A stretch of DNA of 64,000 nucleotides from Megasphaera micronuciformis F0359 (lineage in GTDB: Bacteria; Bacillota; Negativicutes; Veillonellales; Megasphaeraceae), in contig NZ_GL538177.1 of NCBI RefSeq assembly GCF_000165735.1, forward strand, positions 62,001-126,000, given 5' to 3'. The notes under the pieces are model-generated. The model was given only the letters and a program-made list of their open reading frames with translations. It ran no database searches and had not been told where the DNA came from. The position numbers and the translations under genes are program-made. Below are positions 14,532 through 21,899 of the stretch, piece by piece; the stretch's first letter is position 1; each line of letters opens with the position of its first letter.

Positions 14532-16424
14532 GTGTTTGTTGCCGGAACTTACGATGTAATCGTTGTCGGTGCAGGACATGCGGGTTGTGAAGCGGCTTTG
14601 GCCGCTGCTCGCATGAAAATGCATACCTTATTGATTACGCTTAATTTAGATAATATAGCTTTAATGCCCTGTAATCCCGCTATAGGCGGTCCGGGTAAAA
14701 GTCACCTCGTTAAAGAAATTGATGCTTTAGGCGGTCAGATGGGTTTGGTAGCCGATAACACGGCTATACAAATGCGTATGTTGAATACGGGCAAAGGTCC
14801 TGCAGTTTACTCTTTGCGTGCTCAATCGGATAAAAAAGCATATCAGTCTGAAATGACACATATCTTGGAAAATGAAGCCAATCTGGATGTGAAACAACTG
14901 ACCGTTACGGATCTTATCGTAGAAGATAAGATTGTAAAGGGTGTCTATACGGAATTGGGTGAAACCTTTTTGGCTAAAGCGGTCATTTTGGCAACCGGAA
15001 CATATTTAAAGGGGCGTATCATTATCGGAACAACCGTACTTGAGTCAGGTCCCATAGGACAACGATCGGCCGAAGCATTATCCGATTCTTTGAAAAAATA
15101 CGGGATTTCATTAATGCGTTTTAAGACAGGAACTCCGGCTCGGATAGACAGCCGTACGTTGCGAACCGACTCTATGGAAAAGCAGGAAGGAGATAATGAA
15201 GGACATGCCTTTTCTTTTCTGTCTGAACGGTTAAATCGTAATAAGGTTTGTTGTTGGCTTACCTATACGAACGAGAGAACTCATGAGATTATTCGATCCA
15301 ATCTGGATCGGGCACCTATGTGCAACGGAGTTATTGAAGGTATCGGGCCCAGATATTGTCCGTCTATTGAATCTAAAATTCTTCGTTTTGCCGATAAGAA
15401 GAGACACCAGCTTTTTGTTGAACCGGAAGGATTAAAAACGGAAGAAATGTATGTTCAGGGAATGAGTACCAGCTTGCCCATGGATGTACAGTATGAATTT
15501 TTAAAGACCATTCCCGGCTTGGAAGATGTGAAAATAATGCGACCCGGATATGCTATCGAGTATGATTGTCTCGACCCTTTGCAACTCTTGCCTACTTTGG
15601 AAGTCAAGAAGATAAGAGGATTGTATTCGGCCGGTCAGGCAAACGGAACGAGCGGTTATGAAGAGGCGGCGGCACAAGGGCTGATAGCAGGTATTAATGC
15701 GGCACTGAAGATACAGAAAAAAGATCCCTTTGTATTGACACGGGCGGAAGCCTATATAGGTGTTCTTATAGATGATTTGGTTACAAAGGGTACAAACGAG
15801 CCGTATCGTATGATGACCAGCCGATCCGAATATCGTTTAATTCTAAGACAAGATAATGCGGATATGCGATTGACGGAAAAAGGCCGTGAATTAGGGCTTG
15901 TAACCGATGAGAGATATGCAGCCTTTTGTAAGAAAAAAGAGGAAGTTGATGAGCTTCTTTCTGTCTTAAAAAAATTGTCCGTTACGCCGACGACCCGGAC
16001 TAATGAACTTCTCGAGTCGGTAGGGTCGGCTCCTTTAAAAACGGGAATCAAGGGCGTCGACTTGTTACGTCGTCAAGAAATGACCTATTCTTTAATGAAA
16101 AAGCTATTTAGTGAACTTAAAGACTATCCTCTTGATGTAACGGAAGAAGTGGAGATTACGGTTAAGTATGAAGGCTATATTGAACGTCAGCGGGAACAGG
16201 TAGCAAAGATGAATAAGTTGGAACAGCGTCTTTTACCCGATTCTATTGACTACGAAGCGATCGATACAATCTCTTCCGAGGGTCGACAAAAGCTTTCCGA
16301 TATTCGGCCGCGCTCATTAGGACAGGCTTCGCGTATATCCGGAGTTTCACCGGCAGATATTACGGCGTTATTGATTTATACTGAGCAGATGAGACGGGAG
16401 GGGAAAGGTAATGTTTCCATGTAA
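14532..16424 (+). CDS. mnmG: tRNA uridine-5-carboxymethylaminomethyl modification enzyme MnmG (GidA)
   Basis: A 630-residue FAD enzyme, partner of MnmE. It has the dinucleotide-binding [10 protein letters not shown] motif near residue 14, the [21 protein letters not shown] motif, the second family signature ([21 protein letters not shown]) near 370-390, and a C-terminal helical tRNA/MnmE-binding domain. The frame opens earlier at TTG 14505. AGGAGG at 14519-14524 is 7 bases before GTG 14532, so GTG (MFVAGTYDV) is the start. Its end overlaps rsmG by 14 bases. Confidence 0.96.
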
Positions 16425-17124
16425 GGGAGATGAGCTTTTCCGTCTTGCCTATCCGAACATAACGGATGATGAGCTGGAAAAATTCAAAATCTTTGCCGGG
16501 TTATTGGAAGAAAAAAATAAGGTTATGAACTTAACAGCCATTACCGATGCCGACGAAGTGACGGTAAAGCACTTTATTGACAGCTTAAGTTGTTATGATG
16601 AGCGCTTCTTTTTCACCGGGGCTAAGGTATTGGATTTGGGTACGGGTGCCGGGTTTCCCGGAATTCCCCTGGCTATTATGCACGACGATTTGAAGATTAC
16701 CTTCTTCGACAGCCTTCAAAAGCGGTTAACCTTTTTAAAGGAAGTGACAACGACTCTTTCATATAAGCAGGCCGAGTTTTTGCACGGGCGAGCTGAAGAA
16801 GAGGCTCATAAAGATATATATCGGGAAGCCTTCGATATAGTTACGACTCGAGCTGTAGCCAGACTCCCTGTTTTAGTTGAATGGGCCTTGCCGTATGTAA
16901 AAACGGGAGGTTATTTCGTAGCTCTTAAAGGGGCGGCCTATGCAGAAGAAATTGAAGAATCGAAAAATGCGTTGAAAATTCTCGGGGGTATGGTGGAAGT
17001 CGTCGAGCCTAAGAAATTGCCCGGTCTTGAAGATAAGAGAGCCGTTTTATATATTAAAAAGGTTAAAAACAGCCCGGTGAAATATCCTCGCAAGCCGAAA
17101 GTGGCTGTAAAGAATCCGTTATAA
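16411..17124 (+). CDS. rsmG: 16S rRNA (guanine527-N7)-methyltransferase RsmG (GidB)
   Basis: A 237-residue SAM-dependent methyltransferase. The fold markers are [17 protein letters not shown] (SAM-binding loop, about residues 70-86), the FDSLQKR strand and the [24 protein letters not shown] segment. It methylates G527 of 16S rRNA. The C-terminus ends in a Lys/Pro-rich tail. ATG 16411 overlaps the end of mnmG, giving translational coupling, in the usual mnmE-mnmG-rsmG order. Confidence 0.95.
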
Positions 17125-17140
17125 AGAAAGGATGAGCTTT

Positions 17141-18112
17141 ATGAAGATGAAAAAACTGGCCCTTTGTGCTATGGTATGGTGTCTCGGATTGGCCTCATCG
17201 TTTGCCGTTTCCGATGGGGAGATTCATGCCCGGGCAGCCGTTCTGATGGATGCTCAGACAGGAGAAGTACTGTATTCGAAAAACGGTGATGAAAAGCTGT
17301 ATCCCGGCGGGACGACTATGATTATGACGGCCCTTTTAGGGGCCGAAGCGGGCGATACAGTATTGGACGGAGCCGTTCATTTTTCCGATGATGTAACTAA
17401 ATTGGATAGAGACGTAGCCGTTTTGGGAATTTCCGCAGATCACCCCGTTACGCTTCGCAATGCCCTTACGGCTATGATGACCTATACGGGTTGTGATGCG
17501 GCCTTGGATACGGCTGTCACGGTAGCTCCTTCCGTAGCGGACTTTGTGCATATGATGAATGATAAGGCTGTCGCTATAGGTGCTACGAATACTCATTTTA
17601 CGAATCCTCACGGATTGCCGGATGCAAACCATGTTTCGACGGCTAAAGATTTAGCTAAGATAGCTGTATATGCTATGCAAAATCAGACTTTTAAATCTTT
17701 TACGGGACGTACGAGTTTTGTCATGCCGTATACAAACGGCGGGTCCCAAGAAGTTTTTTCCATGAATGAGTTTCTCAATTCAGGATATAAGGGTGCTAAC
17801 GGCATTAAAACCGGTGCCACCGACTACGGCGGAGCGACCTTGGTTGCATCGGCTACGCGCGGGGATAAGACTTATGTGGTCAGCATTTTAAACTCGGATA
17901 ACCGTAGTGGTGATGCAAAGCTGTTGATGGACTTTGCCTTTGCTGAGACCACTGCAATCGATGCGGTGAGCAAAGAGGACGGAAAATCAGCGGTGGCAGA
18001 AAAGAAGGAAAATAAGACGACTCCTGAAGAGGATGCCGAAGCCTATACTTTACGAGATGCGCCGGAAGGGCAAACGTTGACGGGTATTGCAGCACAACAT
18101 ATTTCTAAATAA
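17141..18112 (+). CDS. Exported DacA/PBP5-like protein lacking the catalytic motifs (pseudoenzyme)
   Basis: A 323-residue homologue of peptidase S11 D-Ala-D-Ala carboxypeptidases. A signal peptide (KKLALCAMVWCLGLASSFA) is followed by ARAAVLMDAQTGEVLYSKNG, clearly S11-like. The SxxK motif, usually PASxTK, reads PGGTTM, so Ser is Gly57 and Lys is Met60. The SxN motif reads T116-G117-C118 instead of S-G-N. Only KTG (223-225) remains. The C-terminal PBP5_C domain and membrane anchor are replaced by a charged Lys/Glu-rich tail. The frame is intact and the fold-defining residues are kept, so this is a maintained gene, not a decayed one. AAAGG before ATG 17141 fixes the start; ATG 17132 touches the Shine-Dalgarno. 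Peptidoglycan binding or regulation without hydrolysis is inference. Confidence 0.82.
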   Translation: MKMKKLALCAMVWCLGLASSFAVSDGEIHARAAVLMDAQTGEVLYSKNGDEKLYPGGTTMIMTALLGAEAGDTVLDGAVHFSDDVTKLDRDVAVLGISADHPVTLRNALTAMMTYTGCDAALDTAVTVAPSVADFVHMMNDKAVAIGATNTHFTNPHGLPDANHVSTAKDLAKIAVYAMQNQTFKSFTGRTSFVMPYTNGGSQEVFSMNEFLNSGYKGANGIKTGATDYGGATLVASATRGDKTYVVSILNSDNRSGDAKLLMDFAFAETTAIDAVSKEDGKSAVAEKKENKTTPEEDAEAYTLRDAPEGQTLTGIAAQHISK

Positions 18113-18140
18113 GTATAAATAGCATAATGGTGGATATAAA

Positions 18141-18169
18141 ACCGCTTCCTGTTAGGAAGCGGTTTTTTT
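18141..18169 (+). terminator. Terminator after the DacA-like gene
   Basis: A 10-bp stem (ACCGCTTCCT/AGGAAGCGGT, loop GTT) followed by seven T at 18163-18169. Confidence 0.9.
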
Positions 18170-18245
18170 CATAAACCATACTATAATTATGATATTTAAT
18201 CATTTTGGACATTCGTGCATATTCGTTTAGAATAATGAACGTTTT

Positions 18246-18277
18246 TGATTGATTATTATTGTTTGTGATTGTATACT
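18246..18277 (+). promoter_or_regulatory. Promoter and possible FruR operator of the fructose operon
   Basis: TTGATT (18249-18254) and TATACT (18272-18277) are spaced by 17 bases, 34 bases before fruR. TGATTG occurs twice, at 18246-18251 and 18266-18271, exactly 20 bases apart (two helical turns) and overlapping the promoter. That is what an operator of the DeoR-family repressor encoded next could look like. The promoter is well supported; the operator is inference. Confidence 0.65.
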
Positions 18278-18310
18278 AAGGGCGAAATTTACTTTCAGGA
18301 GGTACTCATT

Positions 18311-19069
18311 ATGTTGACCGAAGAACGACAGAGAGACATAGCACGGCTTGTAATGATTGAAAGAGCCGTAACGGTACAGCAGTTGTCGGAGCGGTACGGG
18401 ATCTCGGAATCGACGGCCAGACGGGATTTACTTACCTTACAAAAGATGGGCCTTGTCAATCGGGTTCATGGTGGAGCCACGGTTGTAGACGAAGTGGATG
18501 AATATAATGTCAATTCTGAAAGTATTCAGCAGAAATATGCCTATCACGTAGAAGAAAAGAGAAAAATAGCCGCTTATGCCGCTACTTTGATAGAAGAACA
18601 GGATTTTATTTATATAGACGGCGGTTCGACGACGGAACAAATGGGCGACTTTTTGACGTCACATGATATTTCAATTGTTACAAACAGTCTTCCCTTGGCA
18701 CAAAAACTGGCTGCACGGGGGCTACAAGTAAGTATACTTCCCGGGACGGTTAAAGGATCGACTGAATCGGTTATCGGAGGAGACATGAGAGATATGCTCA
18801 GACGTTACCACTTCACGAAGGGTTTTTTCGGTACAAACGGGATTGATCTTCGTTTCGGGTATACGACCCCCGATCAGGAAGAGGCGGCCTGTAAGACGGC
18901 TGCACTTAAACAGTGTACCAAGGCGTATGTTTTGGCAGATACGAGTAAATTCGGTCGTTCGTCACACGTAACATTTGCGACTCTTGCGGAGGTCGCAATT
19001 ATTACGGCAGGCAAGAAGGATTTAGATGTTTCCGTATACGGTGAGCAAACGGAGGTGTGTATGCTTTGA
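18311..19069 (+). CDS. fruR: DeoR-family transcriptional regulator of the fructose operon
   Basis: A 252-residue DeoR-family repressor. The N-terminal winged helix-turn-helix (RQRDIARLVMIERAVTVQQLSERYGISESTARRDL in part, residues ~5-40, with RVHGG at the wing) is followed by a sugar-phosphate sensor domain with YIDGGSTTEQMGDFL and the NGID segment. Regulators of this family next to fruK-fruA usually respond to fructose 1-phosphate. The frame opens at 18269, but AGGAGG before ATG 18311 (MLTEERQ) decides the start. Its TGA overlaps the TTG start of fruK. Confidence 0.92.
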   Translation: MLTEERQRDIARLVMIERAVTVQQLSERYGISESTARRDLLTLQKMGLVNRVHGGATVVDEVDEYNVNSESIQQKYAYHVEEKRKIAAYAATLIEEQDFIYIDGGSTTEQMGDFLTSHDISIVTNSLPLAQKLAARGLQVSILPGTVKGSTESVIGGDMRDMLRRYHFTKGFFGTNGIDLRFGYTTPDQEEAACKTAALKQCTKAYVLADTSKFGRSSHVTFATLAEVAIITAGKKDLDVSVYGEQTEVCML

Positions 19070-19977
19070 TTTACACGATTACGTTCAATCCGTCCTTAGA
19101 CTATGTTGTTCATACGACGGATTTTTCTACCGGTAATATTAATCGGGCAGAGGCGGAAGCCATATATCCTGGAGGTAAGGGAATTAACGTATCCCTTGTA
19201 TTACAAGCCTTGGGAACCCGAAGCAAGGCCTTGGGCTTTGTAGCCGGTTTTACCGGCCGGGAAATAGAGCGTCTTTGCGTGAATGCCGGTGTACAATGTG
19301 ATTTTCTTTATTTACGAGAAGGTAATTCTCGCATTAACGTAAAGGTTATCAGCCATGAAGAAACGGCACTTAACGGAATGGGGCCGCTTATAGGTCAAGA
19401 GGATATTAATCACCTGAAAAAAATAATAGGGTCTCTAAGCTCCGATGATGTACTGGTTCTTGCCGGAAGCATACCGGCAGGTATAGACAACCGTATATAT
19501 GAACAGTTATTGGCGTCCGTAGCAGCTAAAGGCGTCAAAACCGTTGTCGATGCGACAGGCGAGCTTTTACGTAATGTATTGAAGTATAAACCCTTTTTGA
19601 TTAAACCCAACCGAGAAGAACTGGAAGAATTATTCGATATAAAATTAAGGACAGATGAAGACATTATTTTTCAGGCACGGAAACTCCAAGAAGAAGGGGC
19701 ACAAAACGTACTTGTATCCCTCGGCGGTGACGGTGCCGTATTAATCGGTGAAGATAATGAAATATATAAGGTAAAAACGCCCGAAGGAACGCTCGTCAAC
19801 TCCGTGGGTGCCGGAGACAGTATGGTAGCCGGATTTATTTCGGCTTATATGAAATACGGGGGGAACTTGAGCGAGGCATTACGTTGGGGGATTGCAGCCG
19901 GAAGTGCTACGGCTTTTCATGAATGGCTGGCAACGGGCCGACAAATTAAAGATATGTATGAAGCTGTTTGGTTATAG
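19066..19977 (+). CDS. fruK: 1-phosphofructokinase
   Basis: A 303-residue PfkB-family kinase that phosphorylates fructose 1-phosphate to fructose 1,6-bisphosphate. It has the MIYTITFNPSLDYVV start, PGGKGINVS (both PfkB signature and substrate loop), and the C-terminal signature SVGAGDSMVAGF with the catalytic Asp. The frame can start at GTG 19057, but that is 1 base from the GGAGG. TTG 19066 is 10 bases away and gives the family's typical N-terminus. TTG overlaps the stop of fruR (TTGA). Confidence 0.96.
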   Translation: MIYTITFNPSLDYVVHTTDFSTGNINRAEAEAIYPGGKGINVSLVLQALGTRSKALGFVAGFTGREIERLCVNAGVQCDFLYLREGNSRINVKVISHEETALNGMGPLIGQEDINHLKKIIGSLSSDDVLVLAGSIPAGIDNRIYEQLLASVAAKGVKTVVDATGELLRNVLKYKPFLIKPNREELEELFDIKLRTDEDIIFQARKLQEEGAQNVLVSLGGDGAVLIGEDNEIYKVKTPEGTLVNSVGAGDSMVAGFISAYMKYGGNLSEALRWGIAAGSATAFHEWLATGRQIKDMYEAVWL

Positions 19978-19988
19978 GGGGAACCGTT

Positions 19989-21899
19989 ATGAAAATTACG
20001 GATTTATTGAAAGTTGAAAGTATCGATTTACAGGCAGAGGTTGTCGATAAACGAGGCGCTGTTAATAGGTTAGTAGATTTAATGGAAAAAAGCGGTTGTT
20101 TAAAAGATAAAGAAGCGTATAAGGCCGCAGTCTTAAAGCGTGAAGGCGAAGGAAGTACGGGAATCGGTGAGGGTATTGCCATTCCTCATGCCAAGACAGA
20201 TGCGGTTGTAAAGCCCGCACTGGCATCTATGATTGTTCGCACCGGTGTCGATTATGAAAGTCTTGATGATGAGCCGGCTCACCTTTTCTTTATGATTGCC
20301 GCACCGGCGGACGGTGCCGATGTTCATTTGGAAGTCCTTAGCCGTCTCAGCAGAATGCTTATGGATGACGACTTTAGAGAGGCTTTGATGTCGGCTCCCG
20401 ATAGAGAAACGTATTTAAAAATTATTGATAATGCGGAGCAAGCCTTGGCAGTCGAAGATTCTGGAGAAGCCGGTCAAGCGGCAGTCTCAGCTGATGTGAC
20501 GGAAAGACCGTTTGTCGTTGCCGTAACGGCTTGCCCTACAGGAATTGCTCATACATACATGGCTGCCGAAGCCTTAGAGAACAAGGGTAGCGACATGGGT
20601 ATTGATATTAAAGTAGAAACAAACGGTAGCGGCGGAGTCAAAAATGCTTTGACTGCCGATGATATAAAACGGGCTGTAGGTGTTATTGTGGCAGCCGATA
20701 AGGACGTGCCGGTCGAACGATTTAAAGGAAAACACGTCGCTTTCGTTAAGGTGGCGGAGGGCATTAAGAATCCTGCCGGTTTGATTGAAGGCGCCTTGCA
20801 ACAGACGGCTCCCGTATTTAACGGAAGCGGCAGTAAAAGTGAAGAAAGTACCTCCGGTGAAGGGACGGAAAGCACGGGTCGACGTGTTTATAAGCACTTA
20901 ATGAACGGCGTTTCACATATGCTTCCTTTCGTTATCGGCGGCGGTATTTTAATTGCTTTGGCCTTCCTTTTTGACATGAATAATGCCGGGACGGCCACTT
21001 TCGGTTCGGGAACGCCTGTAGCAGCTTTTTTGAAAGATATCGGCGGTTTGGCATTCAGTATGATGATGCCTATTTTAGCCGGATATATTGCCGTCAGCAT
21101 AGGTGAACGACCGGCATTGATGCCCGGTATTATCGGCGGTTTTTTGGCAACTAACGGAGGATCGGGATTTTTCGGAGCCCTTTTTGCCGGATTTATTGCG
21201 GGGTATGTCGTTATCTTTTTAAAGAAGGTTTTTGCTAAACTGCCTCAAGCCTTGGAGGGTACTAAGCCCGTATTACTTTATCCCGTTTTCGGGCTTATTC
21301 TCATAGGTCTTATTATGGTTTTTGTTGTTAATCCGCCTACGGCCGTATTCAACCAATGGCTGTCGTTTACTCTGGCCGGTATGACTGCGACCAGCAAGAT
21401 TTTCTTGGGCCTTATTTTAGGCGGCATGATGTCTATCGACTTCGGCGGTCCTATTAATAAAGCAGCCTATGTTTTCGGAACGGCTTCATTAGTCGATGCG
21501 TCGGGAACAGCTGTCAGCTCCGGTATCATGGCTTCCGTCATGATCGGAGGTATGGTGCCTCCCATTGCAATTGCTTTGGCGATGCTTGTTTTTAAGGGCA
21601 AGTTTACAGAGAAAGAGCGACAATCTACACTTACGAATTTTATTATGGGGTTATCTTTTATTACGGAAGGAGCTATTCCTTTCGCCGCCTCCGATCCGGT
21701 TCATGTCATACCCTCGTGTGCCGTCGGTTCGGCTGTAGCCGGGGCTCTGTCCATGTTTTTTAATTGTACCGTTCCGGCCCCTCACGGCGGGATTTTCGTA
21801 TTCGGTGTCGTTACGAACTGGCCCATGTACTTGGCAGCTCTTTTTGCCGGTGCCGTAGTGGCGGCTCTCTTGTTGGGATTAACGAGAAAGAATGCTTAG
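19989..21899 (+). CDS. fruA: PTS fructose transporter EIIABC
   Basis: A 636-residue fused permease that imports fructose and phosphorylates it to fructose 1-phosphate. EIIA (1-150) has GIAIPHAKT with phospho-site His67. EIIB (~175-275) has VTACPTGIAHTYMAAEAL with phospho-Cys182. EIIC (~300-636) is a membrane domain rich in Gly and hydrophobic helices (LPFVIGGGILIALAFLF; GLSFITEGAIPFAA). A Ser/Glu/Gly-rich linker at about 275-300 joins EIIB to EIIC. AGGGGG before ATG 19989 sets the start over the earlier frame opening at 19968. Confidence 0.97.
   Translation: MKITDLLKVESIDLQAEVVDKRGAVNRLVDLMEKSGCLKDKEAYKAAVLKREGEGSTGIGEGIAIPHAKTDAVVKPALASMIVRTGVDYESLDDEPAHLFFMIAAPADGADVHLEVLSRLSRMLMDDDFREALMSAPDRETYLKIIDNAEQALAVEDSGEAGQAAVSADVTERPFVVAVTACPTGIAHTYMAAEALENKGSDMGIDIKVETNGSGGVKNALTADDIKRAVGVIVAADKDVPVERFKGKHVAFVKVAEGIKNPAGLIEGALQQTAPVFNGSGSKSEESTSGEGTESTGRRVYKHLMNGVSHMLPFVIGGGILIALAFLFDMNNAGTATFGSGTPVAAFLKDIGGLAFSMMMPILAGYIAVSIGERPALMPGIIGGFLATNGGSGFFGALFAGFIAGYVVIFLKKVFAKLPQALEGTKPVLLYPVFGLILIGLIMVFVVNPPTAVFNQWLSFTLAGMTATSKIFLGLILGGMMSIDFGGPINKAAYVFGTASLVDASGTAVSSGIMASVMIGGMVPPIAIALAMLVFKGKFTEKERQSTLTNFIMGLSFITEGAIPFAASDPVHVIPSCAVGSAVAGALSMFFNCTVPAPHGGIFVFGVVTNWPMYLAALFAGAVVAALLLGLTRKNA

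Follow-up and report, generated by a model that had tools for sequence, protein, structure and literature searches.

A retained S11-family pseudoenzyme without the catalytic Ser-Lys dyad lies behind rsmG in Megasphaera micronuciformis

The window, that is, the whole 64,000-nt stretch of Megasphaera micronuciformis F0359 that was analyzed, carries an S11-family pseudoenzyme gene at positions 17141–18112 of the + strand, recognized by its open reading frame, its Pfam match and its orthologs. Its product has 323 amino acids and begins with MKMKKLALCAMVWCLGL. A Shine-Dalgarno sequence, AAAGGA, is read directly from the DNA at 17127–17132 (+), 8 nt before the ATG. The first residues, about 1 to 26 (17141–17218, +), form a likely N-terminal Sec signal segment with a basic n-region followed by a hydrophobic core; we infer cleavage near residue 26, and the predicted structure has a low-pLDDT helix at residues 2–16 within the segment. 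A strong rho-independent terminator hairpin with a U tract follows at 18138–18166 (+, folding z = −5.9). A terminator consensus scan did not pick it up, probably since its U tract is base-paired as part of the stem. The first-pass annotation's description of an intact frame with a good ribosome site and a terminator is therefore borne out.

The conserved upstream neighbor is rsmG (16411–17124, +), the last gene of mnmE-mnmG-rsmG (names assigned from the sequences), which ends 16 nt before the pseudoenzyme's start, so that the cluster reads mnmE-mnmG-rsmG-S11. Directly 3′ of the pseudoenzyme, the window encodes a DeoR-type regulator, a 1-phosphofructokinase-like kinase and a fructose PTS protein (18269–21899); this set keeps its synteny in most of the genus's genomes. 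Several related genomes (L063–L071) have an OFA-type transporter gene between the S11 paralog and this deoR-fruK-fruA operon; the transporter gene is absent from the window at 18112–18269.

A Pfam search of the protein returned a single match, Peptidase_S11 (PF00768), at residues 22–253 with 146.5 bits and an E-value of 1.2e-42, against a curated cut-off of 27.6 bits, which places it in the S11 family. An AlphaFold2 model built with 47 family members (pLDDT 87.7) has a confident S11 domain, and its nearest solved folds in the PDB are S11 enzymes with Z scores of 33–36, led by Bacillus subtilis DacB (3mfd) and Streptomyces K15 and followed by the Escherichia coli PBP5/6 group. The first-pass label 'DacA/PBP5-like' is loose: PBP5-type proteins have a C-terminal beta domain and an amphipathic anchor, both absent here (Pfam gives PF00768 only, and no PBP5_C), and the closest structures are 3mfd and K15. 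The protein ends in a tail of some 40-odd residues that is predicted to be mostly disordered, with disorder in the model at residues 282–302 and then a short C-terminal helix. A motif, YxLRDAPxGQTL, together with the predicted short helix (313–322), is encoded at 18044–18109 (+) and is conserved in orthologs. By eye the tail had seemed LysM-like; a Pfam search of the tail gave no match, and its assignment to a known domain was rejected.

Motif positions were set by alignment to K15 and DacB. Where active S11 DD-peptidases have the SxxK nucleophile Ser and general-base Lys, the window protein has Gly57-Thr-Thr-Met60 (17309–17320, +), with codons GGG at 17309–17311 and ATG at 17318–17320. The KTG motif is intact (Lys223-Thr224-Gly225; 17807–17815, +). 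On both points the first-pass annotation, including its residue numbering, was correct. From the chemistry of the S11 family, we infer that a protein with Gly57 and Met60 has lost the family's acylation activity. The same annotation also took the SxN motif as lost, which is too strong. The SxN position reads Thr116-Gly117-Cys118 (17486–17494, +), and the K15-like SGC found in most orthologs is the usual state of the rsmG-linked paralog, dyad-intact members included, as well as the motif of the active K15 transpeptidase (PMC12073871). The only derived change is Ser116Thr, present in two genomes (the window's and Anaeroglobus), and SxN was accordingly rejected as a third independent hit.

The comparison set comprised the genus, with 15 species-level genomes that include Anaeroglobus geminatus (L033 = G003) and Colibacter massiliensis (L032 = G008). 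The paralog lies directly behind rsmG in 13 of the 15. In the sister genus (G015), an OFA-type transporter gene comes after rsmG and no S11 gene separates the two, and no other S11 locus inspected in the order lies behind rsmG; the rsmG-linked gene thus seems restricted to the Megasphaera genus cluster. All 13 paralog-bearing genomes also have a canonical S11 protein (ASTTK, SGN, KTG). In the window genome it is the sole other S11 (G000:C11:92454-93236), with ASTTK, SGN and KTG intact, and supplies the second S11 protein that the first-pass annotation had proposed to look for. A profile search of the window genome found no S13 protein above the cut-off and three large transpeptidase-domain proteins, its fourth match being the canonical S11 itself. 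One genome of the genus (L031, G002) has a third, divergent S11 protein with ASMTK in a 507-residue open frame. Another, G005 (L073; near-complete at 99%, 1.6 Mb), is the one near-complete genome without the rsmG-linked gene; the canonical gene is missing from it as well, leaving it with no S11 protein, and a chelatase-like ORF, named by eye, comes next at its rsmG locus. This joint loss is a single case, and it fits a dependence between the two proteins.

Among the 13 orthologs, the dyad region is GSTTK in seven, GGTTM in five (the window genome, G003, G008, G014 and G004) and GGTTT in one (G011). The alignment of relatives thus shows the substitutions conserved in five species, while seven orthologs keep the intact form. 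Because Gly and Met recur at these two positions in a further four genomes, a sequencing error is rejected; the first-pass annotation had called one unlikely on the count of three damaged motifs, an argument whose SxN part is wrong. The GGTTM proteins cluster in the tree of the gene itself (support 98/88; 90/80 with G011 added), and in a tree of five neighbor genes their genomes also group (92/94), with G005 inside and G011 elsewhere. When the active-site columns are removed, support for the GGTTM group drops to 70/59, and a grouping of G011 with the intact orthologs is not rejected (p-AU 0.505). A fair reading is that the dyad was lost once, and perhaps a second time in G011.

The seven intact orthologs have 161 invariant columns. 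All five GGTTM proteins retain the residue in 84 of these, 74 show a mixed state, and only three, S57G, K60M and L146I, have switched as a set in all five. If three of the 161 columns were drawn at random, the hand-calculated chance that both catalytic ones would be included is about 2e-4. A maximum-likelihood codon model gives the GGTTM set an omega of 0.135 and the intact orthologs one of 0.122; in the canonical paralogs of the same genomes it is 0.076 and 0.058. Pairwise counts agree (0.10–0.18 where defined); with dS near saturation, these values are approximate and the comparison between groups is rough. Since omega is so similar in the dyad-less and intact sets, selection does not appear markedly relaxed, and the dN/dS check proposed in the first-pass annotation yields purifying selection.

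An early pseudogene, a redundant duplicate in neutral decay whose frame is open by chance, would account for the slightly faster protein evolution of the dyad-less set (median dN relative to the canonical paralog is 2.2, vs 1.7 in the intact orthologs), for the loss of the gene in G005 and for the additional changes at residues 115, 116 and 233. It does not readily account for a frame that stays open in five species at low omega with nearly saturated synonymous sites, or for uniform Gly and Met amid 84 unchanged columns, and we consider it extremely unlikely. Random decay is rejected by omega together with the pattern of switched and unchanged columns; the first-pass annotation had named intact relatives plus random decay as grounds against its reading, and here the relatives exist, but the decay is not random. 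With GGTTM in five species under purifying selection, conserved synteny and an intact paralog in the same genome, the product of 17141–18112 is a retained pseudoenzyme, and neither decay nor sequencing error, as that reading of a kept non-catalytic protein had proposed. Loss of the Ser-Lys dyad with retention of the protein is well supported, its retention being judged from comparative evidence.

Cys118 is invariant in all 13 orthologs, and in the window genome and Anaeroglobus the mature protein has no other Cys, which could suggest that the protein is still an enzyme with another nucleophile, such as Cys118 or Ser/Thr116 with Lys223 as base. However, Cys118 is also present in the intact orthologs and in K15, where the nucleophile is Ser35. 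The other candidate residues vary, with Gly at position 116 in G004 and Arg instead of Lys223 in G014. We know of no S11 enzyme that uses an alternative nucleophile, and consider this explanation very unlikely. Judging from the orthologs, Cys118 is ancestral in the rsmG-linked paralog. K15 (PDB 1skf, 1es2) resembles the window protein in fold (Z about 34, 32% identity), in having SGC instead of SGN, in KTG and in lacking the PBP5 C-terminal domain; unlike the window protein with its Gly and Met, it has a Ser35-Lys38 dyad and acylates. Its Lys38-Cys98 NOS redox bridge (PMC8964421) is impossible in the window protein, which lacks the Lys. The intact orthologs (L008, L010, L012–L016) have the SxxK Lys and the SGC Cys together, the pair that forms this bridge, and by analogy might be redox-switchable. 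DacB (3mfd) and E. coli PBP5/PBP6 share the S11 catalytic-domain fold and KTG, but have an active dyad and SGN where the window protein has Gly/Met and TGC.

The KTG motif survives in four of the five GGTTM proteins. The retained portions of the cleft, namely KTG, the residue 117–119 turn and the NPxGLP segment, are those that hold substrate in active relatives; because these and the tail are preserved, binding without hydrolysis, or scaffolding, is favored. On balance, we think it likely that a duplicate DD-carboxypeptidase/transpeptidase has become a secreted, non-acylating protein that binds peptidoglycan stems or serves as a scaffold. The peptidoglycan-binding or regulatory part put forward in the first-pass annotation would fit such a protein. 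A Megasphaera-specific duplicate of a K15-like, SGC-type DD-carboxypeptidase/transpeptidase would have been placed behind rsmG, and one sub-clade would then have lost the Ser-Lys dyad while keeping the protein as a secreted non-catalytic form. Its cleft, with KTG and SGC or TGC, may still bind D-Ala-ended stems without acylation, and the conserved C-terminal tail may position the protein. The outcome would be that stems are marked or protected, or that the intact S11 paralog or the synthesis machinery is scaffolded and modulated. Two comparisons count against this explanation. The cleft is imperfectly kept, with Arg for the KTG Lys in G014 and Gly for the SxN Ser in G004, and protein divergence is somewhat higher in the dyad-less clade, as the dN ratios indicate.

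Another explanation is a purely structural or assembly partner, for example of the canonical S11, in which the cleft is irrelevant and selection acts on just a surface and the tail. The tail motif is common to dyad-less and intact orthologs and absent from the canonical paralog, both S11 genes are lost from G005, and the motif-adjacent residues 115 and 229 have changed in the dyad-less clade. Against it, T224-G225, T227, N140 and the NPxGLP segment are invariant across that clade, though fold stability could explain this, and we rate a purely structural role as fairly unlikely.

Precedents for non-catalytic roles exist. Active-site mutants of E. coli PBP7 (pbpG, an S11 endopeptidase) still reach midcell, and its C-terminal helix is needed (PMC11586513). 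PBP7 shares a short C-terminal helical tail with the window protein, where it is predicted, and differs in that the wild type is enzymatically active. In Helicobacter pylori, the inactive M23 pseudo-peptidase Csd2 partners the active Csd1 (PMC5053510). Csd2 persists as a cell-wall pseudo-peptidase alongside an active relative, much as the window protein does beside its intact S11; it is of another fold and family, and it is shown to form a complex with Csd1, whereas any complex of the window protein would be hypothetical.

Degenerate S11 proteins also occur elsewhere. The nine-residue PGGTTMIMT is found in L040, which has GGTTM without KTG; this S11 protein comes from a Clostridia MAG, is unrelated and is anchored at its N terminus. 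Since L040 was found by searching with that very string, it demonstrates possibility and not frequency. Its closest homolog (L079) keeps ASTTK and is missing KTG, and a further homolog in this Clostridia family (L098) has AALAM where SxxK is expected. A DNA pattern for the motif occurs in 1 of 398 genomes of the phylum, namely the window's own. Pseudoenzymes thus seem to emerge occasionally in the S11 family. A bolder and somewhat doubtful proposal is that the change from Ser-Lys to Gly-Met created a dedicated, non-hydrolyzing reader of D-Ala-ended peptidoglycan stems that regulates the genome's sole intact S11, and that Clostridia came to the same solution independently at least once.

Pseudoenzymes are already known among cell-wall metallopeptidases; in the open-access literature searched, none is described for S11 proteins or other penicillin-binding proteins. 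The genus offers a natural series, from intact GSTTK through GGTTT and GGTTM to one species without either gene, which lets the catalytic functions of a low-molecular-mass penicillin-binding protein be separated from its non-catalytic ones. It also carries a warning: genes of this kind would receive a carboxypeptidase annotation, yet covalent penicillin binding and wall trimming are not to be expected of their products.
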